A DNA stretch of 44,061 nucleotides from Kiritimatiellia bacterium (GTDB lineage Bacteria; Verrucomicrobiota; Kiritimatiellia; RFP12; UBA1067), in NCBI GenBank assembly GCA_017525225.1, contig JAFXTB010000010.1, positions 1 through 44,061 of the forward strand, written 5' to 3'. The position numbers were made by a program, and so were the translations under genes. Shown one piece after another: positions 21,347 to 41,722 of this stretch. Position 1 is the stretch's first letter. Each line of letters opens with the position of its first letter. The notes under the pieces were generated by a model, which saw only the letters and a program-made list of their open reading frames with translations, was not told the origin of the DNA and ran no database searches.

Positions 21347-23728
21347 ATGAGAAACATGACAGGGATTGCGAAGATGGGGATCGCGCTGCTTGGCGTTCTT
21401 TGCCAGGCGGCGCTTCTGGCGGACGATGTGTTCACCGTGCGCGCATGGGCCGGATTCGCGGCCAAGGCCAACCGCAGAAAGGATGCGACGCTCCTTTTCA
21501 AGGGCGACCGCTCGTGCAAGCCGGAGCGCATCCAGTACATACTGGACGTCCGCAGCGGCGTGCCTGAGTTCAAGTACAAGAACGCGAAGGGGGAGTGGCG
21601 GGGATTTCTGTACCAGGCCGGCGGCGATGTCTGCGAGCCAGGCCCGGGCGGACAGGTCATACCGTCGGACAAAGTGGTGAAGTTCGACACCAAGGCCACC
21701 TGGCTGCATCTTGCCGCCGTGTTCGACCACGGCAGCTTCACGCTCTACATGAACGGACGCCCTGTAATGGTCTCGAAGGGCAGGCATGAGTCGCCGCCGG
21801 TGCACGGGGATCCACTGTACGTGGGCCATGGCCAGGCGCCGGGCGGCTCGGAAGCCTTCTATGTCAATGGCTGCGTGCGCCGCGAGGCATACGAGAAGCG
21901 CGCGATGTCAGCGGAAGAGATCGCCGCCGTATACGCGGCCGAACTGCCGCTCGTAAGCGCCGAAACGCCGCCAGAACTGAAGTTCCCGACGCCGGTGGAG
22001 GGCGTGCTGCCGATGACGGCCGCATATCTCGGTTCGCCCGCGGCGAAGCCCATGCCGCGCGGCTCGAACTGCGTTTCGAGGATCGTGATGGTAAACGGCA
22101 TTCCGCGCGTGTGTGTGGATGGCGAGGTGGTTTCGGGGATGGCGATGATGCCTTCGCCGCATGTCGACAATCCGGAGGTGACGTTCTCATGCAATGATTT
22201 CGCGGCAGCGGGCGTGCGCATCTTCAGCAACATCTTCTGGGGCGGCGAACCGCAGAACAAATGGTGGCTCGGCGAGGGCAGATACGACTGGGCGTACTAT
22301 GACGCGCGCCTCAAGGCGATGATCGACGCCGCCCCGAACGGATGGGTCTTCCCCCGGATAAAGATGGATCCCCCGCCCTGGTGGCGAAAGCAGCATCCAG
22401 ACGAATATTACGGCCGGCAGATACGCGCAGACTCGGAGAAGTGGAAGTCCCTGCGCGACCAGATGCTGCGGGATGTCGTCACGCATATCGAGAATTCACC
22501 GCTCGCCCCGTACGTGGTCGGCTACCATATCGGCGCGCTGAGCGGTACCGAATGGCTCATATTCGACCCGAAGGTCAACAGGCAGATCGCCGCCATGACC
22601 CGCGCCGAACGCCAGACGCTTTTCGATCATAGGTCCAAGGCGGCGGCGGACGCGCTGATCGATGCGGCCGGACTCGTCAAGCGTCTCGTGGGCCACCGGA
22701 AGATCGTCGGCTCCTTCTTTGGATATTCGTTCATCGAGCATCGCGACGCGGCGCGCGTATACGCATGCCCGGATCTCGATTTCTTCGCCGCTCCGCATTC
22801 CTACGGCCATCGCCGCGGCGGACAGTCGGGCCGCTCGAACGTCTTCGCCCTCGCAAGCGCCCGCCTCCACGGCAAGATATTCTGGATGGAGTCCGACGAC
22901 CGCACCCTGTATGCCCGTACCGACGAGTCCTATCGGTGCACCACCTTGCAGGAGAGCGTGGACGTGCTCAAGCGGGCCATCGGTTTCACGCTCGCCGAAG
23001 GATGGGAGACGTGGTGGTTCCTGCTTGTAGGAAACAATACATTCCACGACGAGACGATAATGCGGACGATTGCGCGCGGCCAGGACGAGGCTGTAAGGTT
23101 CGGGCTGAAGGCGCCTGCCCGCACTGAGAGCGACGTGGCCGTGTTCCGCCGCGTCCAGGAGCTCGACTACGGTCCTTACTCCCCGAAGGCCGATGAATAC
23201 GGGTACGACGCCTTCTGTCGCATCTATCCGAGGAGTGGCGTAGCCTACGACTGCTATATGTTCGAGGATGTCCTGTCAAAGGACCTGCCGGACTACAAGG
23301 TCTATGTGTTCAACGACGCGAAGACGATTTCGCCGGCGGAGCGCGAGGCGATAGACCGGCTGGTCAGGCGCAGAGGCAGGACCGCGATATGGATGAACGC
23401 CGAGAAGGAGGCGGTCGTCAGTTCGCCGGAAGGCTGGCGCCAGCTTGACTTTACGCGCCCGCCCGTCCCGCAGAGGCTGCGCGCCGTCCTGGCAGAGTCC
23501 GGTGCGCATGTCTGGCTGGACAGCGACGACTTCGTGCTGCCGGGTCGCGGCTATCTGATGGTACATGCCGCCACGGCCGGCGAGAAGCACATCTCGCTTC
23601 CGCAGGCCTGCGACCTTGTGGAGATCTTCGACCGGAAGCGCGACCGGCTGAATGTGAAGGATTTCACAGAAAGCATGTACAAGGGGGAGACCCTCATCTA
23701 CCGCATGGTTCACCGCCGTGCGCCCTAG
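21347..23728 (+). CDS. Exported LamG plus GH42/beta-galactosidase-like protein
   Basis: 793 residues after a GGAGAAAA ribosome-binding site. Signal peptide MRNMTGIAKMGIALLGVLCQAALLADD. Residues ~27-205 form a LamG/concanavalin-like domain (TWLHLAAVFDHGSFTLYMNGRPV, DPLYVGHG, AFYVNGCVRREAYEKRAMSAEEIAAVY). A linker leads to a TIM-barrel with GH42-like features: GMAMMPSP, CNDFAAAGVRIFSNIFWGG, RYDWAYYDARLKAMIDAAPNGWVFPRIKMDPPPWWRKQHPDEYY, YVVGYHIGALSGTEW (acid/base candidate Glu in GTEW), IFWMESDDRT (nucleophile candidate Glu in WMESD) and a C-terminal Rossmann-like A-domain (YKVYVFNDAKTISPAEREAIDRLVRRRGRTAIWMNAE). Probably cleaves a beta-galactoside or related sugar; specificity unknown. Confidence 0.82.
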   Translation: MRNMTGIAKMGIALLGVLCQAALLADDVFTVRAWAGFAAKANRRKDATLLFKGDRSCKPERIQYILDVRSGVPEFKYKNAKGEWRGFLYQAGGDVCEPGPGGQVIPSDKVVKFDTKATWLHLAAVFDHGSFTLYMNGRPVMVSKGRHESPPVHGDPLYVGHGQAPGGSEAFYVNGCVRREAYEKRAMSAEEIAAVYAAELPLVSAETPPELKFPTPVEGVLPMTAAYLGSPAAKPMPRGSNCVSRIVMVNGIPRVCVDGEVVSGMAMMPSPHVDNPEVTFSCNDFAAAGVRIFSNIFWGGEPQNKWWLGEGRYDWAYYDARLKAMIDAAPNGWVFPRIKMDPPPWWRKQHPDEYYGRQIRADSEKWKSLRDQMLRDVVTHIENSPLAPYVVGYHIGALSGTEWLIFDPKVNRQIAAMTRAERQTLFDHRSKAAADALIDAAGLVKRLVGHRKIVGSFFGYSFIEHRDAARVYACPDLDFFAAPHSYGHRRGGQSGRSNVFALASARLHGKIFWMESDDRTLYARTDESYRCTTLQESVDVLKRAIGFTLAEGWETWWFLLVGNNTFHDETIMRTIARGQDEAVRFGLKAPARTESDVAVFRRVQELDYGPYSPKADEYGYDAFCRIYPRSGVAYDCYMFEDVLSKDLPDYKVYVFNDAKTISPAEREAIDRLVRRRGRTAIWMNAEKEAVVSSPEGWRQLDFTRPPVPQRLRAVLAESGAHVWLDSDDFVLPGRGYLMVHAATAGEKHISLPQACDLVEIFDRKRDRLNVKDFTESMYKGETLIYRMVHRRAP

Positions 23729-23736
23729 CATCGGCA

Positions 23737-23885
23737 ATGTCCAACCACCAACCGCCAGCAGCCAACCGCCAATTCAGGGAGGTCGTGGCGTGCCTTTCGC
23801 CTTGTGGAGTCCATGCTGCGGATGGAAGGAATCGGCTGCGTTGCGACCATGTGTTGTTGGTTGATGGTTGCTGGTTGTTGGCTGT
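23737..23885. repeat. Inverted pair of short heptamer arrays
   Basis: Left arm 23737-23771 holds about five units of the reverse heptamer (accacca, accgcca, gcagcca, accgcca); right arm 23858-23885 holds four forward units (tggttga, tggttgc, tggttgt, tggctgt). They are separated by ~85 bases without a plausible gene and could fold into an imperfect stem. The left arm begins 8 bases after the stop codon of the GH42-like gene. The units match the heptamer arrays at 30664, 34054, 37479 and 41603. Confidence 0.7.
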
Positions 23886-23903
23886 TAGATATTGCCTTGG
23901 GGC

Positions 23904-29644: not shown

Positions 29645-30673
29645 ATGGTTTCAAATACTTCGATCAGCTACTATGGTCTCAACTATGTTGAACACGCCGA
29701 GGCGGACTTCAAGGAGATGAAGGCGCACGGCGTCACACAGGTCATCCTCGCGGTGACGGAGTTCGATTTCGACTTCTGGCGGCCGAACATCCCGAAGATC
29801 GTGGACAAGGCCCACGAGCTGGGCCTGCGCGTCCTCATCGATCCGTGGGGCAACGGCAAGTACTTCGGCGGCGAGCAGGTGTCGAAGTTCCTGCAGGACA
29901 ACGTGGAGAACCGCCAGGTCTCCGCGCTCACAGGCGAGAGGCTGCCCTTCGCCTGCTTCAACACCAACTCCTACCGCGACTACTTCCGCAACTTCTGCAC
30001 CACCCTCGCGCGCGAGACGGCGTGCGATGGGTTCTTCTGGGACGAGCCGCACTACGCCTTCCCCAAGGGCATCGCATCCATCACCGGCGGCGTGGCGGAC
30101 GACTGGACGTGCTTCTGCCCCGTGTGCCGCAAGCGCTTCCTCGACTACTACGGCTACGAGATGCCGCGCTACATGACGAACGACGTCAAGCAGTTCCGCT
30201 GGCGCGAGGCGCTCGTGGTGCTGAGCGATACGTCGAAGGCGATCAAGGAGATCCGCAAGGACTGCGAGATCACCTGCTGCGTGCACGCCACGCAGAACGG
30301 ATACTACGTCAGCGAATACCGCGGCTACGACAACTGGGACCTCGTGGGCGCATGCCCGTATTTTGACGTGTTCTCCACCACCATAATCAACTGGGCGCTG
30401 CCCGAGGACTTCTACCGCGACATCACGAAGCGCACGGTGGCCATCGCGAAGAAGTACGGCAAGCAGTCTGAACGCTGGCTCATGGGCTATTACAGGCAGC
30501 CGAAGGACTTCGCGCAGATCGATCGCTGGGTCGACATCGCCGTCGAGGAGGGAGTTGACCGCCTTGCGGCCTGGACGTACCGTGGCGGCTACGGCACGGT
30601 AGTGGGCGCCCCCGACGCGCTCAAGCTGTGGGATGCGATAGGGGCGAATTATAGGAGAGTCATTAGTCGCTAG
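29645..30673 (+). CDS. Cytosolic TIM-barrel hydrolase-like protein, uncharacterised
   Basis: 342 residues with no signal peptide. The pattern suggests a (beta/alpha)8 glycosidase-like protein: YYGLNYVEHAEADFKEMKAHGVTQVILAVTEFDFDFW, IVDKAHELGLRVLIDPWGNG, ACDGFFWDEPHYAFPKG (Glu/Asp candidate), then VADDWTCFCPVCRKRFLDYYGYEMP with CxCxxC, ITCCVHATQNGYY, WDLVGACPYFDVFSTTIINW, KYGKQSERWLMGYYRQPKDF and LAAWTYRGGYGT. I cannot give it a family number. It is the first gene controlled by the divergent XylR-type promoter, so it probably acts on the inducing sugar or an intermediate inside the cell. Its last three codons and the TAG stop already belong to the heptamer array that follows. Confidence 0.8.
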   Translation: MVSNTSISYYGLNYVEHAEADFKEMKAHGVTQVILAVTEFDFDFWRPNIPKIVDKAHELGLRVLIDPWGNGKYFGGEQVSKFLQDNVENRQVSALTGERLPFACFNTNSYRDYFRNFCTTLARETACDGFFWDEPHYAFPKGIASITGGVADDWTCFCPVCRKRFLDYYGYEMPRYMTNDVKQFRWREALVVLSDTSKAIKEIRKDCEITCCVHATQNGYYVSEYRGYDNWDLVGACPYFDVFSTTIINWALPEDFYRDITKRTVAIAKKYGKQSERWLMGYYRQPKDFAQIDRWVDIAVEEGVDRLAAWTYRGGYGTVVGAPDALKLWDAIGANYRRVISR

Positions 30674-30747
30674 TCGCTAGTGGTTAGTGGTTAGTGGTTA
30701 GTGGTTAGTCGTTGGTTGTTGGTTGTTGATTGTTGGTTGTTGGTGGT
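30664..30747 (+). repeat. Heptamer array A (12 units of TRRTBGY)
   Basis: Twelve exact 7-base units: tagtcgc x2, tagtggt x4, tagtcgt, tggttgt x2, tgattgt, tggttgt, tggtggt. The first unit lies inside the coding end of the gene before it and the second supplies its TAG stop. A TAG-type block precedes a TGG-type block, giving the array a direction. Confidence 0.9.
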
Positions 30748-30749
30748 AG

Positions 30750-30770
30750 GGCCCGCTCGCCGAGCGGGCC
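30750..30770. repeat. GC hairpin after heptamer array A
   Basis: Stem GGCCCGCTC (30750-30758), loop GCC, stem GAGCGGGCC (30762-30770): a perfect 9-bp stem two bases after the array. It is followed by gcaaggg and, 26 bases later, the start of the next gene. There is no U-tract, so it is unlikely to be a simple terminator. Confidence 0.85.
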
Positions 30771-30795
30771 GCAAGGGAAAGAAGGAGAAGATGGC

Positions 30796-33700
30796 ATGAA
30801 GATGGCAAGAAATGCTGTGCTGGCCGGTGTCCTGGCCTTGTGCTGCGGCGTGTCTGCGGTCGTGATGGAAATTCCTGCCAACGGGACCTTGTACGTGGGC
30901 GGAGACGGTACCTATGGCGGTCCCTACAACAAACAGGGTGGATTCATCATCTTCAACCCCGGCTCGACGCTTGTCGTCACTCAGACCGTAGCCTTGACCG
31001 TGTGGGCGACTCTGATCGTAACGAACGGCGCAGCCACGGTGCGCTATGAGCCCACGACTTCGAGCATGGCCAGCATTAGCAGCCATATGTTCATACGGGG
31101 AGATGGTTCCTTGAACGTCACCAGCACCAAGAATCTCGGCGAGGTACGTCTTGGGCACGCGGACTACCAGCCAGTTCTGGAGATCGAGAACCTGACCTGC
31201 GACGATAAGGTGGCGAAGATCGGCATTAGCGGCTGCACCTTGCTGAAGATACCGAAGTCCACCAAGAAAAGCTTCACCAAGGAAAGGGGAACCACCTGGC
31301 TGTGTGGCACAGACATGTTCCCGGACGACGAGGAAGTCCGTCTACCGACCGGCGGCGCCTGGGTGCTGGCCAACACCAACGCCGTGCCGCCTGAGAAGAC
31401 CATACATGTGACCCGCCCCGGCATACTCATGCTGGCTCCGCGCAAAGTGCCAGATACGTCCGACATAGTCGCCAACTATCCGCAGGACGTCCGCAACACC
31501 TTTACAGCCGCCTTGAATGGTGTCGCCACGAACTACAACAACATCGTCCTGCATCCTGTCGCCAGCGGCGTGCCGCAGCTCATATTCACGAACAAGATGG
31601 ATTTCACGTTTGCAGGTTCCCTCTCCGGCACCGGCATCGTGGAGGTGACGGGCTACAGAGCGACCTACGACAGAACCACCGCCATTACGGTCGGCCTCAC
31701 GGGCGACAGTTCGTCGTTCCATGGCACGATTGCCGTGAAGAAGCCTTACATCAACCTGTTCCTCGGCCATCCGCACGCGACGGGCGAGGCGCACATCGTC
31801 CCTGTGGCGGAGAACAGCACCATAACGGGCACGGAGGGAGTCTCGGCCTTCATAGAATCCGGAGAGTCCGGCAACGCCGCCGTGCTGGCCGGCGCCGGAA
31901 CCTTCACCTTCGCAGGTGCCGACAAGACCTTCACCAATTCCGTGACCCACTGGTACGACTTCTCCCGTGCCGACATGTACAGATATCCGGGCGAGGGCAC
32001 GACAAACGCGCAGCCTAACGCCAAGCTGGACGGCTATCCGATGGTCGAACGGGTATTCGACTGGCGCGGTCCAAACCTGACCTCCCTTTGGAACCGGAGA
32101 ATGTATGTGAACAGTACCACACTGGAATTCGCAAGTTCGGTCTATCCCTGCCGGAAGAGCGGTACGTTCGCCGGGGAGACGATGGAGTATCTCTCAATCC
32201 CTACCGGCGCATCCCGCCGGATGCCGATTTCAGATGGCGATGGGGCGGGATACATCTCATGCAAATCCGTACCGGCACAGCTTGTCGTGATGGTCTTCGG
32301 AAGCCAGTATGGCGGCGGCAATGCACTTATCGGTACGGCCAATGGAGTACTCGCGCGTGCCGGGAACACCGTCGCCTACGGCATAACCACCAATACGAGC
32401 CATGCCGTGTGGGTGGACGGCGTGCAGGTAGATCCCACCGCGCCCAATACGCTCAACGGCGGCTGGCAGGTGATATCCATCAGCCTGGATGGCGACAGTT
32501 GCACCATACTCGGCGCCGTGAAGGAGGTCGCCGCTCCGTATGGCGGGCAGAACTACGGCGAACTCATGATATTCTCCAACCCGGTGACGGAACGCCAGCG
32601 GCTTGAGGCGGAGATATATCTTGCGGAGAAGTGGGGGCTTTCAAGCCAGTATGCGGCCGCCTCGCGGACGCGCTACGACGACCTGGTACACCTGTCCCTG
32701 ACGAACAGGGTGACGTTCTCGGGATCGGTGACGGTAAACACTGGTGAGAATGCATTGCGCCTTGAGGGCAAGTGCTCTGGCTCGGTGGTGCTGGCGGGTG
32801 GCACGCTGCTTACGAGCAGATCCCCGTGGACAGCGTCGGAGATTCCGTCCGCAGGGCGCATCTACTGGCTTGACGCCGACGATAGATCCACGTTGTCCTT
32901 GCGCGGCGACGTGGATGCCGTGCCGACGAACGGGCGGACGAACGAGGTCTACGCCGTGCGCGACAGGGGTGCGTCGTCGTTCGAGGCGGGCAAGCCGATT
33001 CTATACGGCGTGGAATACCGCAAGCCTACCTGGTACGAGGCGTCGTTCGATGGCGGCCCCGTGCGCGGCTGGCTCGATTTCAACCAGTACTACAACCAGT
33101 GGGCGCAACATAGCCCTTCGGCGGATCCTTCGGGCAACTGTCTGAGATTCTACGAGTATTCGGACGACTTCAACCTCTCGACCGGCCAGCGTACCTCCAC
33201 CGGAGCCGCGCCTAGTCTCGCAACGATAAGCACGCGAACGGCATTCTGCGCACACAATACGGTGCGCGGCGGTGGCACGCCGCTTCTCGACAACATCAGC
33301 AACCTCGGAACGGTCTGGGCACGGATGGAGGGGCCGGGGCAGTCCCTGTGGCGCAACGGACCAAGCGTGTACGCCAATGGCGAGAATCGGCTCGACGGCG
33401 TCGTGATCAATCCCGTCAACGGCTATGACGGCAGGCCCGAAGTGTACACGATACGCGGCACTGGGGCGGTCAACGTGCCGTTCGTCGAAAGCTACATACA
33501 TTCCGAAAAGAAAACCTACGAAGAGGGACGCTCCACGATCCTTGGCGAAATGCTGTGGTATTCGACGGCGTTGACGGACGATGAGGTCGCAGGCATAGAA
33601 TCCTACCTCATGAAGAAGTGGTTGAACAAGGTGCCGAAAGGTTTCGCCGATGTGTCCGGCGTTACCGTGTCTGGCGCTGGCGATGTCGCCGTGGGCGATG

Positions 33701-34056
33701 CGCTTACGGCGCCGCGCTTCGATGCGTCGTTCGCGGGGAACGTCGCGGTCGGCGGAGCAAGGGCGTTCGAGATTGCGATCGACGCTGCGACCGGCGAGGT
33801 TGCAGGAGCGCTGAACGCCCCCGGGGCGGTGCTGGATCTTCCCTCCGCCTGCACGATCAACGTGGACTTCACCGCTCCCGTCAAGGTCGAGGCGCCTACC
33901 GCGTACACGCTCGTCTATGGCGATGCGATGGCGCATCCCGTGGAATGGACGGTCAATTACGGTGCGAACGTCCCGAGAAACGCGAAGATCGTCCAGGCCG
34001 CGACAGAGGTGACGCTCCTGGTGAAGCCGCTGGGGTTGCGGATTTTACTGCGTTAG
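30796..34056 (+). CDS. Large exported LamG-type protein, paralog 1
   Basis: 1086 residues from MKMARNAVLAGVLALCCGVSA (Sec signal) with AAGGAG upstream; an earlier frame start (30730) lies in the hairpin. The N-terminal ~380 residues are beta-rich with passenger-like phrases (FNPGSTLVVTQTVALTVWATLIVTNGAAT, FAGSLSGTGIVEVTG, VGLTGDSSSFHGTI). Next come two LamG/concanavalin-like domains: HWYDFSRADMYRYPGEGT ... HAVWVDGVQV, NGGWQVISISLDGDS, GGQNYGELMIFSNPVTERQRLEAEIYLAEKWGL, and later IYWLDADDRSTLSL ... ILGEMLWYSTALTDDEVAGIESYLMKKWLNKVP. The protein ends ..LLVKPLGLRILLR. It aligns along its full length with the next gene. Likely a cell-surface or secreted glycan-binding protein; no catalytic motif is visible. 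Confidence 0.85.
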   Translation: MKMARNAVLAGVLALCCGVSAVVMEIPANGTLYVGGDGTYGGPYNKQGGFIIFNPGSTLVVTQTVALTVWATLIVTNGAATVRYEPTTSSMASISSHMFIRGDGSLNVTSTKNLGEVRLGHADYQPVLEIENLTCDDKVAKIGISGCTLLKIPKSTKKSFTKERGTTWLCGTDMFPDDEEVRLPTGGAWVLANTNAVPPEKTIHVTRPGILMLAPRKVPDTSDIVANYPQDVRNTFTAALNGVATNYNNIVLHPVASGVPQLIFTNKMDFTFAGSLSGTGIVEVTGYRATYDRTTAITVGLTGDSSSFHGTIAVKKPYINLFLGHPHATGEAHIVPVAENSTITGTEGVSAFIESGESGNAAVLAGAGTFTFAGADKTFTNSVTHWYDFSRADMYRYPGEGTTNAQPNAKLDGYPMVERVFDWRGPNLTSLWNRRMYVNSTTLEFASSVYPCRKSGTFAGETMEYLSIPTGASRRMPISDGDGAGYISCKSVPAQLVVMVFGSQYGGGNALIGTANGVLARAGNTVAYGITTNTSHAVWVDGVQVDPTAPNTLNGGWQVISISLDGDSCTILGAVKEVAAPYGGQNYGELMIFSNPVTERQRLEAEIYLAEKWGLSSQYAAASRTRYDDLVHLSLTNRVTFSGSVTVNTGENALRLEGKCSGSVVLAGGTLLTSRSPWTASEIPSAGRIYWLDADDRSTLSLRGDVDAVPTNGRTNEVYAVRDRGASSFEAGKPILYGVEYRKPTWYEASFDGGPVRGWLDFNQYYNQWAQHSPSADPSGNCLRFYEYSDDFNLSTGQRTSTGAAPSLATISTRTAFCAHNTVRGGGTPLLDNISNLGTVWARMEGPGQSLWRNGPSVYANGENRLDGVVINPVNGYDGRPEVYTIRGTGAVNVPFVESYIHSEKKTYEEGRSTILGEMLWYSTALTDDEVAGIESYLMKKWLNKVPKGFADVSGVTVSGAGDVAVGDALTAPRFDASFAGNVAVGGARAFEIAIDAATGEVAGALNAPGAVLDLPSACTINVDFTAPVKVEAPTAYTLVYGDAMAHPVEWTVNYGANVPRNAKIVQAATEVTLLVKPLGLRILLR

Positions 34057-34158
34057 TCGTTAGTCGTTAGTTGTTAGTTGTTAGTGGTTATTCGTTAGTT
34101 GTTGGTCATTAGTTGTTGGTTGTTGATTGTTGATTGTTGGTTGTTGGTGGTTGTTGAT
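34054..34158 (+). repeat. Heptamer array B (15 units)
   Basis: Fifteen consecutive 7-base units beginning with the TAG stop codon of the LamG gene at 34054-34056: tagtcgt x2, tagttgt x2, tagtggt, tattcgt, tagttgt, tggtcat, tagttgt, tggttgt, tgattgt x2, tggttgt, tggtggt, tgttgat. Same TAG-then-TGG order as array A. Confidence 0.9.
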
Positions 34159-34163
34159 GGTAG

Positions 34164-34184
34164 GGCCCGCTCGCCGAGCGGGCC
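34164..34184. repeat. GC hairpin after heptamer array B
   Basis: Identical to the hairpin at 30750: stem GGCCCGCTC, loop GCC, stem GAGCGGGCC, at the same distance from the array end within a few bases, and followed by gcaagg and the next ribosome-binding site. Confidence 0.85.
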
Positions 34185-34211
34185 GCAAGGAAAAGAAAAG
34201 GAGAAGAAGAG

Positions 34212-37200
34212 ATGAAGATGGCGAGAAATGCTGTGCTGGCCGGTGTACTGGCCTTGTGCTGCGGCGCGTCCGCGGTCGTGACGGTAATTCCCGAGAACGG
34301 AACGTTCTACGTGGGCGGAGACGGCACCAGCGGCGCTCCGTACAACACGCATAACAGTTTCATAGTATTCAACCCTGGCTCGACGCTTGTCGTCACCCAG
34401 ACCACCGCCTTGACCGTCTGGTCGATCCTGATCGCCACCAACGGCGCTGCGACGCTCGAGTTCGGTTCGGGCACATCCCCCCACTACATCAACAGCCATG
34501 TGTTCGCGTGCGGCAATGGCTCTCTGAAGGTCAAAAGTTCAATCGACGTGTCATTGGGACACGCTTTGTACTTTCCTACGTATGACATTGAGAACCTGAC
34601 GATCGAGGGGGGAAGCGGAAAATTCGTTCTCCAATCGTGCACCATGCTGAGCTTCCCTTCTTCCAAAAACTACCTGATATCACGGGACGGGGGGAACATC
34701 TGGCTGTGCGGCACGACCGACATGTTCCCGGACGACGACGAAGTGGTGCTGACCAGGGCGCGTTGGTACCTTGCCAGCCCGACGGCCGTGCCGGCATCCA
34801 AGCCGATCCACGTCACCGGAGAGGCGGGGTACTCGCCTGCGAAATTCACGCTGTGTGCGCGGCCGCTACCGGATACGTCCGACATAGCGGCCAACTATCC
34901 GGAGGATATAAGGGCAACCTACAATAAGAAGACCGTCATCACGAACAGCAACAACATAGTACTGGATATTCCTCCTCGCGGTACATCGACCATGGTTATA
35001 TCGAACAGGGCCGACATCGTGTTCGCGGGGTCGCTGTCCGGTACCGGCGTCGTTGAGGTGACTGGCTGGGCGGGCGCCTTCAGTGCGGCGGCGCCGCTTA
35101 CGGTCGGGCTTACGGGCGACAGCTCGTCGCTGCACGGTAAGATTGTCCTCGCGCAGCCCAACATCGACCTCAAGCTTGGCCATCCGCACGCCACCGGTGA
35201 GGCGCTGGTCATACCCGCGACGTCAGGCAGTACAATATACGGCACGGAGGGCGGAACGGCGAAAGTCGATGCCGGCCAGGACGGCATCACCGCGACGCTG
35301 GCCGATGCGGGCACGTTTGAGCTTGTATCGCCGGACTGGGCTTTCACGAACCATGTGGCCCACTGGTACGACTTCTCGCGGGTTGAAATGTACAGGTTCC
35401 CGGGCGAAGGCACCAGCGAGCCGCATCAGGATTATCTGGACGGCAATCCGCTGGTGGAACGCGTGCTGGACTGGCGCAGCCCCGATCTTACCTCCATGTG
35501 GAATAGAAGGATGTACAAGAACGATGGTACCTATGATTATGTCGCATCGGTCTACCCCTGCCGCAAGACTGCCACCTTCGGCGAAAAGAGCATGAGCTAC
35601 TTGTCGCTGCCTACCGGCAACTTCCGCCGTCTGCCGATCTCCCCGGGCAGTGGATCCAACACGAGGCTGGCGGTACAGGTGCAGATGGCGGTAATGGTTT
35701 TCGGAAGCCAGTATGGCGGCGGCAATGCGCTCCTTGGCACGGACAACGGTTCGCTTGGTCGGACGGGCGCCACGATAGCGGACGGCATCACCACCAATAC
35801 GAGCCATGCGGTGTGGGTGGATGGCGTCCAGGTCGATCCCACGCAGGGCAACGTGCTCAACGGCGGGTGGCAGATCATTTCAATGAAGCTGGACGGCGAG
35901 CCCGTGGATGCCGTGGGCTGGAACAACTGGATAAAGGACAATTCCGGCGGCGGACAGAACTACGGCGAACTGATCCTGTTCACGAAGCCGGTCACGGAAC
36001 GCCAGCGGATCGAGGCAGAGATGTACCTTGCGGAAAAGTGGGGGCTTTCGAGCCAGTATGTCCCAGGTGCGGAAGCACGCCACGATTGGCTGGTCCAGAT
36101 GGATCATACGAACAAGGTCACGGTAACGGGTTCCGCGACCGTCAAGGCCGGCGAGTATGCGATCATGATGGATGGTGCCTGCTCCGGGTCGGTGGTGCTG
36201 GAAGGCGGCACGCTGCTCTCCGGCAAGCGTCCCTGGAAGGAGAGCGAGATTCCGTCCGCAGGGCGCATCTACTGGCTGGACGCTTGCGACAGATCCACGT
36301 TGTCCTTGCGCGGCGACGTGGATACCGTGCCGACGAACGGGCGGACGAACGAGGTCTATGCCGTGCGCGACAAGGGTTCTCAGGCCTACGAGGCGGGCAA
36401 GCCGATCGCGTATGGAGTAAACTGGCGCAAGCCGACCTGGTACGAGGCGTCTTTCGATGGCGGCCCTCTTCGCGGCTGGCTGGATTTCAACCAGTACTAC
36501 AAGCAGTGGCCCGCAACGGCCGGATCCCCCACCGATGGCAACTGCCTCAGGTTCTACGAGTATGCGGACGACTTCAGCATCAAGGACGGAAAGCGGTCTT
36601 CCACCGGATCGGCGCCCGGCTATGCCACGTTGGATACGCGTACCGCCTTCGTCGCGCAGAATTCCGTACGAGGCGGCGGTACGCCGTTGCTGGACAACCT
36701 TAGCAACAACGGCTCCGTCGCTAAAAGGCTTAATGGCCCCGGACAGTCGATTTGGTCCACTGGGCCTGCGGAGTTCTCCAACGGAGTGAACCGTATCAAT
36801 GGCGTCGGGATAGATCCGACGAAGGGATATACGGGCAAGCCCGAAGTCTTCTCCGTGCGGGGCACGGGTTCCGTCAACCTGCCTTTCATCGAAGGTTTGA
36901 ACCATAGCGAAGGGGCAAGCTATGGAACGACCTACGAAAGTGGCAAGGCCGCGATCATCGGCGAGATGCTGTGGTATTCCACGGCCCTGGATGACGATAC
37001 GATGGTCGGCATAGAATCGTATCTCATGAAGAAGTGGCTGGACAAGGTTCCGTCGGGCTTCACGGACATATTGAAGGTCATTGTGGAAGGTACGGGTACC
37101 GTGTCCGTCGTGGATGTCGAGTGCAGGCCCATGTTCGACCCTGCCTTTGGAGGGACGTTCGCCACGGCAGGTACCGGTGCGTTCGAGATGACGGTGGATC

Positions 37201-37481
37201 CCGCCACCGGCAATGTGGCAGGCGCGATCACCGCACCTGAGGCCGCGTTCGACATCCCGTCCACCTGCACGCTGCAGGTCGGTTTCACGGAGCTGCCTGC
37301 GATATCCGAGGGTGGCGTCACCTATACGCTTGTGGACTGCGCGTCGCTCGCGCGTCCGGTTGAGTGGAACGTCGTTCTGGATGCCACGGTACCGCGCCGC
37401 GCGAGAGTGGTGGAGTCGCAGTCCGGCCGCAAGGTTGACATCGTGGTGACGGCTCCGGGGATGCGCGTCCTACTACGTTAG
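34212..37481 (+). CDS. Large exported LamG-type protein, paralog 2
   Basis: 1089 residues; start MKMARNAVLAGVLALCCGASA after AAAAGGAGAAGAAGAG. It follows the same plan as the gene before it: beta-rich N-terminal region (FNPGSTLVVTQTTALTVWSILIATNGAAT, FAGSLSGTGVVEVTG, VGLTGDSSSLHGKI), LamG domain 1 (HWYDFSRVEMYRFPGEGT ... HAVWVDGVQVDPTQGN, NGGWQIISMKLDGE, GGQNYGELILFTKPVTERQRIEAEMYLAEKWGL), LamG domain 2 (IYWLDACDRSTLSL ... IGEMLWYSTALDDDTMVGIESYLMKKWLDKVP) and C-terminus ..VVTAPGMRVLLR. Divergence is greatest in the N-terminal third. Paralogy and tandem position point to duplication of the whole unit together with the array and hairpin. Confidence 0.85.
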   Translation: MKMARNAVLAGVLALCCGASAVVTVIPENGTFYVGGDGTSGAPYNTHNSFIVFNPGSTLVVTQTTALTVWSILIATNGAATLEFGSGTSPHYINSHVFACGNGSLKVKSSIDVSLGHALYFPTYDIENLTIEGGSGKFVLQSCTMLSFPSSKNYLISRDGGNIWLCGTTDMFPDDDEVVLTRARWYLASPTAVPASKPIHVTGEAGYSPAKFTLCARPLPDTSDIAANYPEDIRATYNKKTVITNSNNIVLDIPPRGTSTMVISNRADIVFAGSLSGTGVVEVTGWAGAFSAAAPLTVGLTGDSSSLHGKIVLAQPNIDLKLGHPHATGEALVIPATSGSTIYGTEGGTAKVDAGQDGITATLADAGTFELVSPDWAFTNHVAHWYDFSRVEMYRFPGEGTSEPHQDYLDGNPLVERVLDWRSPDLTSMWNRRMYKNDGTYDYVASVYPCRKTATFGEKSMSYLSLPTGNFRRLPISPGSGSNTRLAVQVQMAVMVFGSQYGGGNALLGTDNGSLGRTGATIADGITTNTSHAVWVDGVQVDPTQGNVLNGGWQIISMKLDGEPVDAVGWNNWIKDNSGGGQNYGELILFTKPVTERQRIEAEMYLAEKWGLSSQYVPGAEARHDWLVQMDHTNKVTVTGSATVKAGEYAIMMDGACSGSVVLEGGTLLSGKRPWKESEIPSAGRIYWLDACDRSTLSLRGDVDTVPTNGRTNEVYAVRDKGSQAYEAGKPIAYGVNWRKPTWYEASFDGGPLRGWLDFNQYYKQWPATAGSPTDGNCLRFYEYADDFSIKDGKRSSTGSAPGYATLDTRTAFVAQNSVRGGGTPLLDNLSNNGSVAKRLNGPGQSIWSTGPAEFSNGVNRINGVGIDPTKGYTGKPEVFSVRGTGSVNLPFIEGLNHSEGASYGTTYESGKAAIIGEMLWYSTALDDDTMVGIESYLMKKWLDKVPSGFTDILKVIVEGTGTVSVVDVECRPMFDPAFGGTFATAGTGAFEMTVDPATGNVAGAITAPEAAFDIPSTCTLQVGFTELPAISEGGVTYTLVDCASLARPVEWNVVLDATVPRRARVVESQSGRKVDIVVTAPGMRVLLR

Positions 37482-37597
37482 TCGCTAGTCGCTAGTCGTT
37501 AGTTGCTAGTGGTTAGTGGTTAGTTGTTAGTGGCTAGTGGTTAGTGGTTAGTTGTTGGTTGTTGGTTGTTGATTGTTGGTGGTTGGTGGTTGTTGAT
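37479..37597 (+). repeat. Heptamer array C (17 units)
   Basis: Seventeen 7-base units starting with the TAG stop codon of the preceding gene (37479-37481): eleven TAG-type units (tagtcgc, tagtggt, tagttgt and variants), then tggttgt x2, tgattgt, tggtggt x2, tgttgat. Confidence 0.9.
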
Positions 37598-37603
37598 GGT
37601 AGA

Positions 37604-37622
37604 GCCCGCTCGCCGAGCGGGC
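37604..37622. repeat. GC hairpin after heptamer array C
   Basis: Stem GCCCGCTC (37604-37611), loop GCC, GAGCGGGC (37615-37622). One base change (A for G) at the outer pair relative to the copies at 30750 and 34164 shortens the stem to 8 bp. Confidence 0.8.
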
Positions 37623-37644
37623 CGCAGATGAAGGTGAAAAGATT

Positions 37645-39045
37645 GTGAAAGTTATGAAGGTTGTAGTGGCTGGGGTCGTTGCGTGTGCCATTGGTGGCGC
37701 ATGGGGCGGCGTTCCGCTCTTCGATTTCGAGAATGCCTCCGAGGCGCGAATCGTGCCTCTGCCGAGACACGGGGACACGCTCGTGACGAACATCTGCGCC
37801 ACTTCCGGTTCCAGGGCGCTCTGGATGGGTCCGCACGGCGAGACCGTCCCTGACGAGTCGTACGGATTCGCCACGCTGTACTGGACCGATCCCGCCATGA
37901 ACGACTGGTCGCGGTTCGAATCTCTCGTGTTCGATGCCACCAACCTTTCCTCCGAAGATCGTACGCTTGTCATATACCTTTACGACGCCGCCATGAAAAA
38001 GCGTAAGGGTGCGCGTTACTCCTTCGAGCTTCCGAAGTCGTCCACGCGGCGCGTGGAGATGCCGCTTGAACGCGCAAGAGGCCATGTGCGCATGCAGGAC
38101 CTCCGCGCCATCGCCCTTGTGCACTGCTCTCCGCGCTACGGACAGATCGTGCTCGACCGCTTCACTCTGCTGGCGAAGGGCGAGACACCGCCGCCGGTGC
38201 CCGCCGCCAAGGCCTTCGCTGCCGAGATCAGGGCTGTCGCCGCCATCGAGGATAGGCTCAACAGTGAGCTTGACCGGAAGTTCGCGGAGCAGGATGTGGT
38301 GCGCGTCGCCGAAATGAAGCGGCGCATGGATGCCGACAAGGTGGCGCAGGCCGGCAGGCTTGCGGCGTTCGTCCAGAGGAAGGGCGTGGCGCAAGGCCGG
38401 ATGGCGCTGGCGCAGGCGACAGGCATGGACCAGATACGTCCGCGCTGGACCGACTTCTCGCGTCTGGCCCCTGCCACGCATGGCATCAGGCTGCGTCTTG
38501 CCCAGGGCGACTACGAAGGTGCGCAGCTTGCCGTGGCCTCGGCCGACGGTCTGCCGCTCAAGGGGGTACGCGTGGCCGTGGTAGGGGATGTCGCGGCCAG
38601 GCTCAAGGTGGAGGTCGCTCCGGTCGGATACGTCTTCGCCGACGCCCCCACCGCGCACCGCCAGGCGTATTGCGTGCCGTCCGCAACCAACATGTGCGGC
38701 TATGTGCGCCTGACGCGCGAGACGCCGCTCGGCTGGTATGCCGACCCCATCCTGCCGTTCCTGGATTCGGTGGACGTGGCGCCGGGCGACGTGCAGAGCT
38801 TCCATGTGCGGGTGCATGCGCCGGAAGGGTGCGCCGCAGGTTCCTACTCCGGCGTGCTGAAGGTCTCGGCGGCGGATGCGCCCGGTGCCGCGGTTCTATT
38901 TCGGTGCGGGTGGATGGCTTCAAGACGGGTAAGGTATCGGAGCTGCCGCTGCTCGCATCGTTCACGCCATTCGTGCAGCCGCTGTCGCTTTCGTGGCGTC
39001 CGGAGCAGGCCGAAGAGGTACGTTCCGACCCCGAAGCCCCTGTGA
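37645..39045 (+). CDS. DUF4091-type exported hydrolase, 5' part (frameshifted)
   Basis: The frame opens with GTG at 37645 (MKVMKVVVAGVVACAIGGAWGG, Sec signal; ATG 37654 is an alternative). Real coding sequence continues to about 38890 and includes LFDFENASEARIV, a carbohydrate-binding-like beta-sandwich (ALWMGPHGETVPDESYGFATLYWTD ... MQDLRAIALVH...YGQIVLDRFTLLAKGE), a helical stretch with many charged residues (AIEDRLNSELDRKFAEQDVVRVAEMKRRMDADK) and a second sandwich with YEGAQLAVASADGLPLKGVRV, WYADPILPFLDSVDVAPGDVQSFHVRVHAPEGCAAGSYSGVLKVSA. After ADAPGA the frame turns into nonsense and stops at 39045, while the sensible continuation is in the frame one base back (see next entry). A single base appears to be missing near 38888-38892. 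Confidence 0.75.
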   Translation: MKVMKVVVAGVVACAIGGAWGGVPLFDFENASEARIVPLPRHGDTLVTNICATSGSRALWMGPHGETVPDESYGFATLYWTDPAMNDWSRFESLVFDATNLSSEDRTLVIYLYDAAMKKRKGARYSFELPKSSTRRVEMPLERARGHVRMQDLRAIALVHCSPRYGQIVLDRFTLLAKGETPPPVPAAKAFAAEIRAVAAIEDRLNSELDRKFAEQDVVRVAEMKRRMDADKVAQAGRLAAFVQRKGVAQGRMALAQATGMDQIRPRWTDFSRLAPATHGIRLRLAQGDYEGAQLAVASADGLPLKGVRVAVVGDVAARLKVEVAPVGYVFADAPTAHRQAYCVPSATNMCGYVRLTRETPLGWYADPILPFLDSVDVAPGDVQSFHVRVHAPEGCAAGSYSGVLKVSAADAPGAAVLFRCGWMASRRVRYRSCRCSHRSRHSCSRCRFRGVRSRPKRYVPTPKPL

Positions 39046-40076
39046 ACCTCTGGCGCCGCCGTCGTCTAGAATGGGCCGACTTCCTCGTGGAATACTTCAT
39101 CATGCCCTCCACCATCTATCCGGCACGTGGCGACAAGATACCGGACTTCGATCTCGTCGAGAGGGCGGCGGCCAAGGGACGGTACGGCTTTTTCACGGTG
39201 GGTCCCTGGACAGAATGCAGGGACGAGGCGGCGTGGCGGAAGGGGATCCTCGAGCCGCTGAAGAAGCGTGCCGCCGTTGCGCGGGCGGCCGGGCTGGGCC
39301 GCTGGATGGTGTCGTATGGATGCGACGAGACAACCGAGGAGCGCTTCCCCGCCATCCGCCGCGCCATCGACATACTGAAGCATGAGCTGCCGGACGTGCC
39401 GCTCGTCACGACCGCGGTGGATCCGGAGCTTGGCGTCGGCTCGCCGCTCGCCGGCATCGACTGGTTCGTGCCGCTCACGAAGGCGTGGAATCCCGCGAAG
39501 GTGGCCGCCGCCCGCGCCGAAGGACGCAAGGTGTGGTGGTACGTGGCGTGCGGTGAAAGGCCGCCCTACGCGAATCTGTTCGTGGAAAGCCCGCTCAGCG
39601 AAGGACGCCTCCTCATGGGCGCGCAGGCGATTAGGATGAAGCCGGACGGCTTCCTTTACTACGCAGTGTCGAAGTGGAACCAGCGCCGTCCGATAACTTC
39701 GGGGCCTTTCACCGACTGGTCGCCGCACGGCATACGCCATCGCGGAGGAAAGGCGTTCGATGGCGACGGCGTGTGGGCGTACTGCGGACCGGGTGGCACG
39801 CCGGTGGCGACGCTGCGGCTCGAGAACTTCCGCGACGGCGTGGAGGACTACAACTGCGCCATGACGCTTGCGAGGCTGCTGGAGAAGCATGCCGACAAGA
39901 CCGATGCATGGTCCGTAAGGGCACGCGAGCTGCTGGACGTGCCGCTCTCGGTGATGGAGACGATGTCGAACTTCACCGACGATCCGCGCCGGGTCTACGC
40001 CTGGCGCGATGGCATGGCCGATCTCATCGAACAGGAACTGGCGGCGGCAAGCCGCGTCAATAAGGAGGCTGAATGA
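38892..40076 (+). pseudogene. DUF4091-type hydrolase, 3' part after frameshift
   Basis: Continuation of the gene at 37645 in another frame, about 395 codons from the switch point to the TGA at 40074-40076. It begins GSISVRVDGFKTGKVSELPLLASFTPFVQPLSLSW and continues through a TIM-barrel-like part (YFIMPSTIYPARGDKIPDFDLVERAAAKGRYGFFTVGPWTECRDEAAWRKGILEPLKKR, WMVSYGCDETTEERFPAIRRAIDILKHELPDVPLVTT, GIDWFVPLTKAWNPAKVAAARAEGRKVWWYVACGERPPYANLFVE) to the DUF4091 end PVATLRLENFRDGVEDYNCAMTLARLLEKH. The restored protein would have about 810 residues. A sequencing or assembly error is as likely as a real mutation, because both halves keep good coding character; there is no slippery heptanucleotide at the junction. 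Its stop overlaps the next start (ATGA). Confidence 0.75.
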
Positions 40077-41599
40077 AGGCACAAGGTTTTGCGATTGCCG
40101 CGTTGGCGGCGGTCGCCGTTGCGACGGCGGCGGATTTGGACTTTCTGCGTCCGGAGATAATCCCCGAACCCCGCGAGCTCAGATACGAGTCGTCGGTGGC
40201 GGTGCGGATCGACGGCTCCACGGCGTTCGCCGTGACCTGTCCGGACGCGGCGGCCGCGCAGTGGGTGAAGGACAAGGTCGCCGCCTGGTTCGGCGCCAGG
40301 ATCGGCGATGTCGCCCTTGCGTCCGCCCAGGGTGCGCCCGGCGGCGGCGACGAGGGCTACACGATCGAGGCCAAGCCGGGGCGCATCGCGATCGGCGCCA
40401 ACTCGATCAAGGGCGTGAAGCACGCCATGCACGCGCTACGCCAGGTGGCGGAACGCGAGAGCGTGGGCGTCAAGCTCAAGGGCTACTGGCTGCCGGCCCT
40501 CTCGGTGAAGGATTCTCCCGCGTTGGCGTTTCGCGGCATCCACTTCTGCTGGTTCCCCGAATGCCCCGTGTCGCTCATCGAGCGTCAGATACGGGTGGCC
40601 GCCATGTACAGGTTCAACTATGTGGTCCTGGAAAGCTGGGGCGTGTTCAGGAGCGAGCGGCATCCGTTCCTCGCGGTGCGCGACGCTCCGCTGACCGTGA
40701 AGGAGGCAAGGCGCCTGGCGGGGATCGCATCCGACCTCGGCGTTACGCTCATCCCGCAGGTGAACGTGTACGGGCACGCCGCGATGCAGCGCGCGAGGGG
40801 CGGCAAGCATACCACGCTCGACATGCATCCTGAATGCCAGCCGCTCTTCGAGCCAGGCGGATGGAACTGGTGCCTTTCCAACCCCGATGCGCGGCAGGTG
40901 GTGCGCGACCTGGTGGCGGAGATCCACGAGGCGTTCGGCAATCCGCCGTTCTTCCACATCGGATGCGACGAGGCCGATCCGCCCACGTGCGCCATGTGCC
41001 GCGCCGCGCGCCCGTACAGCGGTCTAGTGATGGAGCACATCAAGGACATCGCGGGCCTCCTGCGCAAACGCGGTGCACGCGCGATGATGTGGCATGACAT
41101 GCTTCTCGAGAAGGGACGCTGGAAGCCGTTCTACTCGCATGGCGACGAGAACGCCCCGCAGATGCTCGACGCCCTGCCCCGCGACATCGTGATCTGCGAC
41201 TGGTACTATGGCAGCGACTCCGGCGGACACGACAAGACCGCCGGCACGTCCGTGACAGGCAACTACCCGACGCTCGAGCATTTCAAGTCCAAGGGGTTCG
41301 ACACCCTCACCTGCCCCTGGCGCGAGCGCAAGGGCATAGTGGCGCAGGCCAAATATGCGCACGAGCATGGGCTTTTCGGCATGCTTGAGACCATCTGGCA
41401 CCACTACCGCGGCATGGAGTTCGGCAGGATGGTGGAGATCGCCGCATGTGGCGCGTGGGGCACCGAGCGCAGGGACGCAGGGCGCCGCGGCAGCCCGTTC
41501 GCCACCAACTGGCGCAGGTGCGGCTGGGATGCCGGCATCACGGAGTTTTCCGAGACAGGCTTCCTAGACCGCCAGGTCACCCGTGACGTGGATGACTAA
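40073..41599 (+). CDS. Exported GH20-like beta-N-acetylhexosaminidase
   Basis: 508 residues starting in an ATGA overlap with the DUF4091 gene. Signal peptide MKAQGFAIAALAAVAVATAADLD. Residues ~25-140 resemble the GH20 N-terminal domain (IIPEPRELRYES ... DEGYTIEAKPGRIAIGANSIKGVKHAMHALRQVAE). The TIM barrel starts LAFRGIHFCWFPECPVSLIERQIRVAAMYRFNYVVLESWGVF, contains IPQVNVYGHAAM, and carries the catalytic Asp-Glu pair in FFHIGCDEADPPTCAMCR (the family has HIGGDE). In GH20 the Glu is the acid/base and the substrate N-acetyl group assists. The Trp residues MMWHDM, CPWRE and ETIWHHY fit the sugar-binding pocket. It is shorter than typical hexosaminidases, so related specificities are possible. Confidence 0.82.
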   Translation: MKAQGFAIAALAAVAVATAADLDFLRPEIIPEPRELRYESSVAVRIDGSTAFAVTCPDAAAAQWVKDKVAAWFGARIGDVALASAQGAPGGGDEGYTIEAKPGRIAIGANSIKGVKHAMHALRQVAERESVGVKLKGYWLPALSVKDSPALAFRGIHFCWFPECPVSLIERQIRVAAMYRFNYVVLESWGVFRSERHPFLAVRDAPLTVKEARRLAGIASDLGVTLIPQVNVYGHAAMQRARGGKHTTLDMHPECQPLFEPGGWNWCLSNPDARQVVRDLVAEIHEAFGNPPFFHIGCDEADPPTCAMCRAARPYSGLVMEHIKDIAGLLRKRGARAMMWHDMLLEKGRWKPFYSHGDENAPQMLDALPRDIVICDWYYGSDSGGHDKTAGTSVTGNYPTLEHFKSKGFDTLTCPWRERKGIVAQAKYAHEHGLFGMLETIWHHYRGMEFGRMVEIAACGAWGTERRDAGRRGSPFATNWRRCGWDAGITEFSETGFLDRQVTRDVDD

Positions 41600-41602
41600 C
41601 CA

Positions 41603-41700
41603 ACAGCCAACAGCCAACAATCAACAGCCAACAGCCAACAGCCAACAATCAACAACCAACCACTAGCCACTAACCACTAACGACTAGCGACTAACGACTA
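41603..41700 (-). repeat. Heptamer array D (14 units, inverted orientation)
   Basis: Fourteen units of the reverse-complement heptamer on the plus strand, from acagcca at 41603 to acgacta at 41694-41700; a degenerate unit (ctaacca, 41596-41602) contains the TAA stop of the GH20-like gene. Read on the minus strand it shows the same order as arrays A-C: TAG-type units, then TGG/TGA-type units. There is no GC hairpin beside it. This accounts for most of the 123-base gap before the next gene. Confidence 0.9.
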
Positions 41701-41722
41701 ACCTTCAAAAAGGACACTCAAG

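Follow-up and report, generated by a model that had tools for sequence, protein, structure and literature searches.

Why should tandem arrays of a seven-base unit lie exactly at the stop codons of the genes that precede them? The question is raised by a stretch of 44,061 nucleotides (the window, meaning the whole stretch of DNA that was analysed), which is part of a 4.2 Mb draft genome of a Kiritimatiellae bacterium in 180 contigs, and in which an initial annotation had described four directional arrays (A to D) of units of the form TRRTBGY. The features that bear on the question are these:

29645..30673, + strand: 342-aa gene upstream of array A, whose final codons (ATT AGT CGC TAG) are array sequence
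30664..30747, + strand: array A, 12 exact TRRTBGY units, TAG-type and then TGG/TGA-type
30751..30769, + strand: hairpin GCCCGCTCGCCGAGCGGGC directly 3' of array A, one of 36 exact genomic copies
30796..34056, + strand: gene for a 1086-aa protein, with a TAG stop that lies in the first unit of array B
34054..34165 (about), + strand: array B, about 16 units, 12 to 13 of them exact, with degenerate units within
34165..34183, + strand: hairpin GCCCGCTCGCCGAGCGGGC after array B
34212..37481, + strand: gene for a 1089-aa tandem paralog of the 1086-aa protein, with a TAG stop that lies in the first unit of array C
37479..37595, + strand: array C, 16 contiguous exact units and one detached
37604..37622, + strand: hairpin GCCCGCTCGCCGAGCGGGC after array C
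40073..41599, + strand: GH20-type gene upstream of array D, with a TAA stop
41600..41703, - strand: array D, on that strand TAG-type units followed by TGG/TGA-type units

All four arrays are present in the sequence, and the counts of exact units given for array A (12) and array C (17, that is 16 and the detached one) agree with ours, while those for the other two were too high: array B holds 12 exact units in three runs and one detached rather than 15, and array D holds eight and one TRRTBGY units rather than 14, the rest being mostly TGGCTGY. The placing of the TAG stops inside units was correct (the second unit in array A, the first in arrays B and C), as was that of the TAA of the gene preceding array D in a degenerate unit; array D runs in the direction opposed to that of this GH20-type gene, whose C-terminus lies at most one codon away from that of its same-genus ortholog. 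Because the genes before arrays B and C are tandem paralogs (59% identical) and the same dispersed hairpin follows all three forward arrays, A to C do not count as entirely separate cases.

The window holds further repeats and irregularities. Two short TGG-type heptamer tracts in opposite orientations (23738-23772 and 23853-23886) lie just past the stop of a gene ending at 23728, a 105-bp tandem repeat, containing TTGGCAACATT words found again in relatives, occupies positions 1-220, and another of about 436 bp positions 671-1668. A GH123-type gene (37645-40076) is apparently split over two frames (ORFs 37645-39045 and 38670-40076), which appears to be a frameshift or an assembly error. No match to a known structured RNA in Rfam was found within the window.

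Beyond the window, four consecutive TRRTBGY units matched the genome 322 times, compared with 59 matches for the reversed-pattern control, so that chance is excluded as the origin of the arrays. The starts of at least 45 arrays were located, and the metagenome assembly holds at least 54 arrays of a TAGTBGY family with TGR-type units, a number drawn from about 1 Mb of genome in stretches partly picked for arrays and hence not a complete census. The 7-bp period recurs at many dispersed loci, mainly outside coding sequence (none of the 54 arrays lies inside a called ORF; gene ends come from a home-made codon-usage caller that may be wrong in places). Among 525 near-consensus units positions 1, 3, 4 and 6 are nearly fixed as T, G, T and G, and variation is confined to positions 2 (A/G), 5 (G/C/T) and 7 (T/C). 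The five common TAG-type units all have stops in the three frames of both strands, a property of about 13% of all heptamers. TGGTTGT, TGGCTGT and TGGTGGT lack this property, and TGATTGT has stops in all three frames of one strand only.

The initial annotation had proposed a preference for stop codons, which we find genome-wide. Between co-directional genes 13 of 27 arrays overlap the upstream stop and six begin 0-5 nt past it (19 of 27). If arrays were inserted evenly into the gaps between such genes, whose median is 43 nt and lower quartile 7 nt, 22-34% would fall in that zone at a tolerance of 20 nt; the excess has a binomial P of 1e-4 at the most conservative of these values, and of 1e-3 (16 of 24) once related arrays are dropped. 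The six arrays starting 0-5 nt past the stop are themselves in excess (P = 0.003), and some of them follow TGA or TAA stops that the array does not supply. Array and gene direction agree about as often as not (22 same, 20 opposite), and the median distance to the stop is -3 nt for same-direction and 2.5 nt for opposite-direction arrays. At start codons, six of 25 opposite-direction arrays lie within 2 nt, and no same-direction array comes closer than 13 nt. In the related genomes G038 and G006, arrays of TAGTNG, TAGGGGC and TTTAAAG likewise reach stop codons, and some, facing the other way, reach start codons.

Whose stop codon is it, then? Genes in random stretches of the genome end in TGA 187 times, in TAG 82 times and in TAA 36 times (61% TGA). 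Where array and gene share a direction, the stop is TAG in 12 of 16 cases (P = 8e-5), and where they are opposed it is TAA in nine of 11 (P = 2e-7), these being the codons that the array offers on each strand. Many proteins abutting arrays end in residues encoded by the array (for example ...SR, ...TNH or ...TSN before the stop), and at two loci (L121 and L126) where the stop-free TGG/TGA block is met first the ORFs read on across it for 66 and 73 nt and stop only in the TAG-type block. The stop is thus usually part of the array rather than its target.

The converse is seen in a family of GGGGAAY arrays, which contain no stops and lie inside called ORFs in eight of 10 cases, as opposed to none of the 54 of the TAG family, with the caution that stop-free repeats also hold reading frames open by chance. 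One case is firm: at L111:6602-6657, 56 nt of GGGGAAC/T repeats run in frame within the valyl-tRNA synthetase gene (valS), coding for GNGEWGTGNGEQGTGNE just after a conserved ISRQLWWGHRIPAYY stretch, in a region that aligns poorly to the solved bacterial ValRS (1gax) between well-conserved stretches.

Orthologous junctions without arrays indicate how much room an array would find. Named orthologs of the 342-aa gene preceding array A belong to assemblies of Kiritimatiellae from rumen and gut; the orthologs in other Kiritimatiellae stop at about the same codon, free of arrays or with other ones. PdxS ends in ...EERGK in G000 and its close relatives, most of which stop with TGA and not TAG; the PdxS-PdxT junction holds about five heptamers in G000, and in the same-genus G001 and in G005 stop and start overlap as ATGA. 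Glutamine synthetase III ends in ...MLFLY with the array present or absent. The type III secretion ATPase of most close relatives ends in KEAVS, the stop in some of them overlapping as TAATG; in G000 it ends in KEAVSTNH, three codons being contributed by the array. In most relatives in which the next gene is unchanged, the junctions of these last two genes range from overlapping to about 20 nt (most glutamine synthetase III gaps being 0-25 nt), and the proteins stop at the same codon or three codons earlier. A like pattern is seen in G038 and G006. Since the junctions of array-free relatives are overlapping or 0-20 nt wide and offer no other room, an array there can only touch the stop; in these four junctions it does not truncate the protein and has no need to search for a stop.

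The same junctions carry unrelated repeats in related genomes. After the gene preceding array A we found GTGCTTA (L106), AGCTTAG/AGCTTGG (L042), GTGTAAA (L039) and other repeats, and at the PdxS and glutamine synthetase III junctions of other genera (L193, L194 and L215) AATGTTGCCAATG- and CAGGATTAACAGG-type repeats, the latter with inverted copies, and 8-mers. Heptamers dominate the non-coding tandem arrays of the relatives (17, compared with six 8-mers). Upstream of the 342-aa gene in relatives (L041, L046, L049 and L053), CCACTAA-type arrays run into the ATG (..CCACTA continuing as TG), leaving no room between them for a ribosome-binding site.

The arrays are also polar. The order from a TAG-type to a TGG/TGA-type block, noted at the outset for arrays A to D, is correct in all four and recurs as a gradient of unit types over the 54 arrays rather than as a random order: TAGTCG units concentrate near the 5' end, at a mean relative position of 0.37 (z = -7.2 when units are shuffled within arrays), and TGG/TGA units near the 3' end (z = +6.1), and CG comes ahead of GG in 37 of 47 arrays (P = 1e-4) whichever way they face relative to genes. 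Eight arrays are divided into a true TAG block and a TGG/TGA block, always in this order, and most arrays have no second block; as a general rule the polarity was not seen in G038 or other relatives. Slippage alone would not be expected to produce an order of unit types; we infer that the arrays descend from an old polar family whose units were later reshuffled. Recent copy-paste of whole arrays was rejected, shared runs of units being no more frequent than under a first-order Markov null. Several array 3' flanks have dispersed modules in common, including the 36-copy hairpin. This hairpin, GGTAGGGCCCGCTCGCCGAGCGGGCCGC, has a 19-bp core that occurs as three exact copies in the window and 33 elsewhere in the genome, repeatedly beside heptamer arrays and sometimes some tens of bases before the start of a gene.

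Arrays A and C fold well in comparison with dinucleotide shuffles (z = -3.5 and -5.6). Shuffling units within an array makes little difference, however, the reversed order folds equally well, and permuted heptamers of the same composition fold better on average, so that a function as RNA hairpins was discarded; RNA structure does not account for the 0-5 nt excess, the fixed unit positions or the spread of the family. Two candidate sources were likewise set aside: the single Y1_Tnp locus of the genome has no array or hairpin copy in its 3.3 kb, which speaks against a nearby REP/RAYT source, and the only RVT_1 domain is not near arrays.

Taking these results together, we consider it likely that the arrays form a family of intergenic heptanucleotide tandem repeats, dispersed and specific to the lineage, whose members bear stops and are spared only at gene junctions, and that they coincide with stop codons mainly through the all-frame, two-strand stops of the repeat itself and through survival only at such junctions. 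Embedded in YTAG, a TAG-type unit presents stops in three frames of both strands, so that an ORF entering a TAG-type block from either side has to end within about 21 nt. At the four junctions compared, where the operon genes of array-free relatives overlap or nearly abut, an array inevitably lies at the stop and commonly replaces it without shortening the protein. Arrays may arrive or expand at many places, purifying selection presumably removing those inside genes or over the start region of the next gene, so that the survivors would sit at gene 3' ends. Families would spread together with adjoining dispersed repeat modules, and unit-by-unit reshuffling could keep the broad 5'-to-3' order of unit types and erase the exact order of units. 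Against plain tolerance of this kind count the two excesses over uniform insertion (19 and six of 27), of which selection on 5' regions could be a source.

The initial annotation had offered a mechanism that adds repeats at gene 3' ends or, alternatively, the survival of insertions that spare coding sequence, and the evidence supports the latter. That an enzyme or a templated process places polar arrays of heptamers at stops or at the 3' ends of mRNAs would agree with the stop excess over uniform placement, with the polarity of the 54 arrays and with the presence of several unrelated heptamer families at one stop codon in orthologs, but arrays facing the other way also border on start codons, and both the sole Y1 transposase and the sole RVT_1 domain lie away from them. 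Active targeting of stops is moreover not needed, given the orientation-dependent stop, the read-through where a stop-free block comes first, the stop-free family inside genes and the junctions without spare room, and we regard it as improbable. Somewhat less improbable is a local origin, array by array, through replication slippage from a 7-bp duplication that took in the gene's own TAG or TAA: the stop mostly keeps the array's register, heptamers prevail among the tandem arrays of relatives, some arrays have 14-bp higher-order periods and identical units are slightly in excess as neighbours (z = 2-3). Different seeds would not, however, give units barely more alike within one array than genome-wide (0.188 vs 0.140) nor one variant set at more than 50 sites, and the stop of most close PdxS orthologs is TGA rather than TAG.

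Least probable of all appears a selected function, in which arrays are kept between genes as two-strand, three-frame translation barriers or transcript-end elements. It would explain why the main family and several families of relatives have two-strand stops although so few heptamers do, and Xanthomonas transcripts are reported to start or stop more often at quadruplex-forming heptamers (PMC4692102). The near-equal orientations, the absence of arrays from the same junctions of most relatives and folding no better than that of permuted heptamers tell against it, as does a survey of eubacteria whose abstract reports no evidence for selected fail-safe extra stops (PMC6764699). A more novel reading, though itself unlikely, is a polar mobile element with TAGTCG units at a fixed 5' end and TGG/TGA units and a tail module at a fixed 3' end, which would disperse as a unit into junctions and, by its own two-strand stops, split overlapping operon genes with neither harmed, unrelated families of such elements recolonising the same junctions in related genomes.

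The tolerance of stop-bearing arrays at junctions would provide an account of why heptamers hug stops across bacteria, as units with stops in all frames of both strands can invade tight operon junctions; the operon spacing and gene C-termini of these gut bacteria are being rewritten by repeats, and the order of unit types within arrays could reveal how such arrays spread. Cyanobacterial STRRs are likewise degenerate 7-bp tandem repeats dispersed between genes, with units and a phylum that differ from those studied here. The arrays fall outside REP/RAYT systems, in which REP palindromes have an associated Y1 transposase nearby. Among repeat-rich bacterial genomes, many have the heptanucleotide as their commonest long repeat unit according to Mrazek et al. 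(2007), as cited in PMC4679880, whose citing text gives for this general class of long simple sequence repeats no stop relation or polarity.

The relation to stop codons, thought at the outset not to have been described, was published twice in 2015, and the stop proximity of heptamer repeats is therefore already known (PMC4692102, PMC4679880). Compared with the open-licence literature (subscription journals may hold earlier reports), what is new is the Kiritimatiellae family with its two-strand stops and its variation limited to three positions, the orientation-dependent stop, the contrasts of read-through and stop-free arrays, the empty sites, the polarity gradient and the recolonisation of one junction by unrelated repeat families in related genomes. 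The available text of Rehm et al. (2015, PMC4692102) describes strong proximity to and overlap with stop codons for heptamers of Xanthomonas and Nostoc (GGGAATC and GGGGA(C/T)T), which are likewise dispersed, intergenic and degenerate; their units have no stop codons, are quadruplex-capable and occur preferentially about four together, and no internal order of unit types is mentioned there. The TAGTBGY unit, in contrast, has no runs of three G, and its opposite-direction arrays also lie close to the stop, unlike the heptamers in that text. MacGregor (2015, PMC4679880) pointed out that no ORF can continue past heptamers whose stops cover every frame, and described intergenic TAACTGA repeats in Beggiatoaceae, Cyanobacteria and Bacteroidetes with forward stops in all frames, 13 sets of which overlap the stop of the upstream gene, as explained by the stops of the unit. 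Those repeats mostly have a single invariant unit in 2-6 copies, placed shortly before start codons, and differ from the TAGTBGY consensus in the unit itself and in carrying all-frame stops on one strand only, whereas the TAG-type units of the Kiritimatiellae carry them on both.
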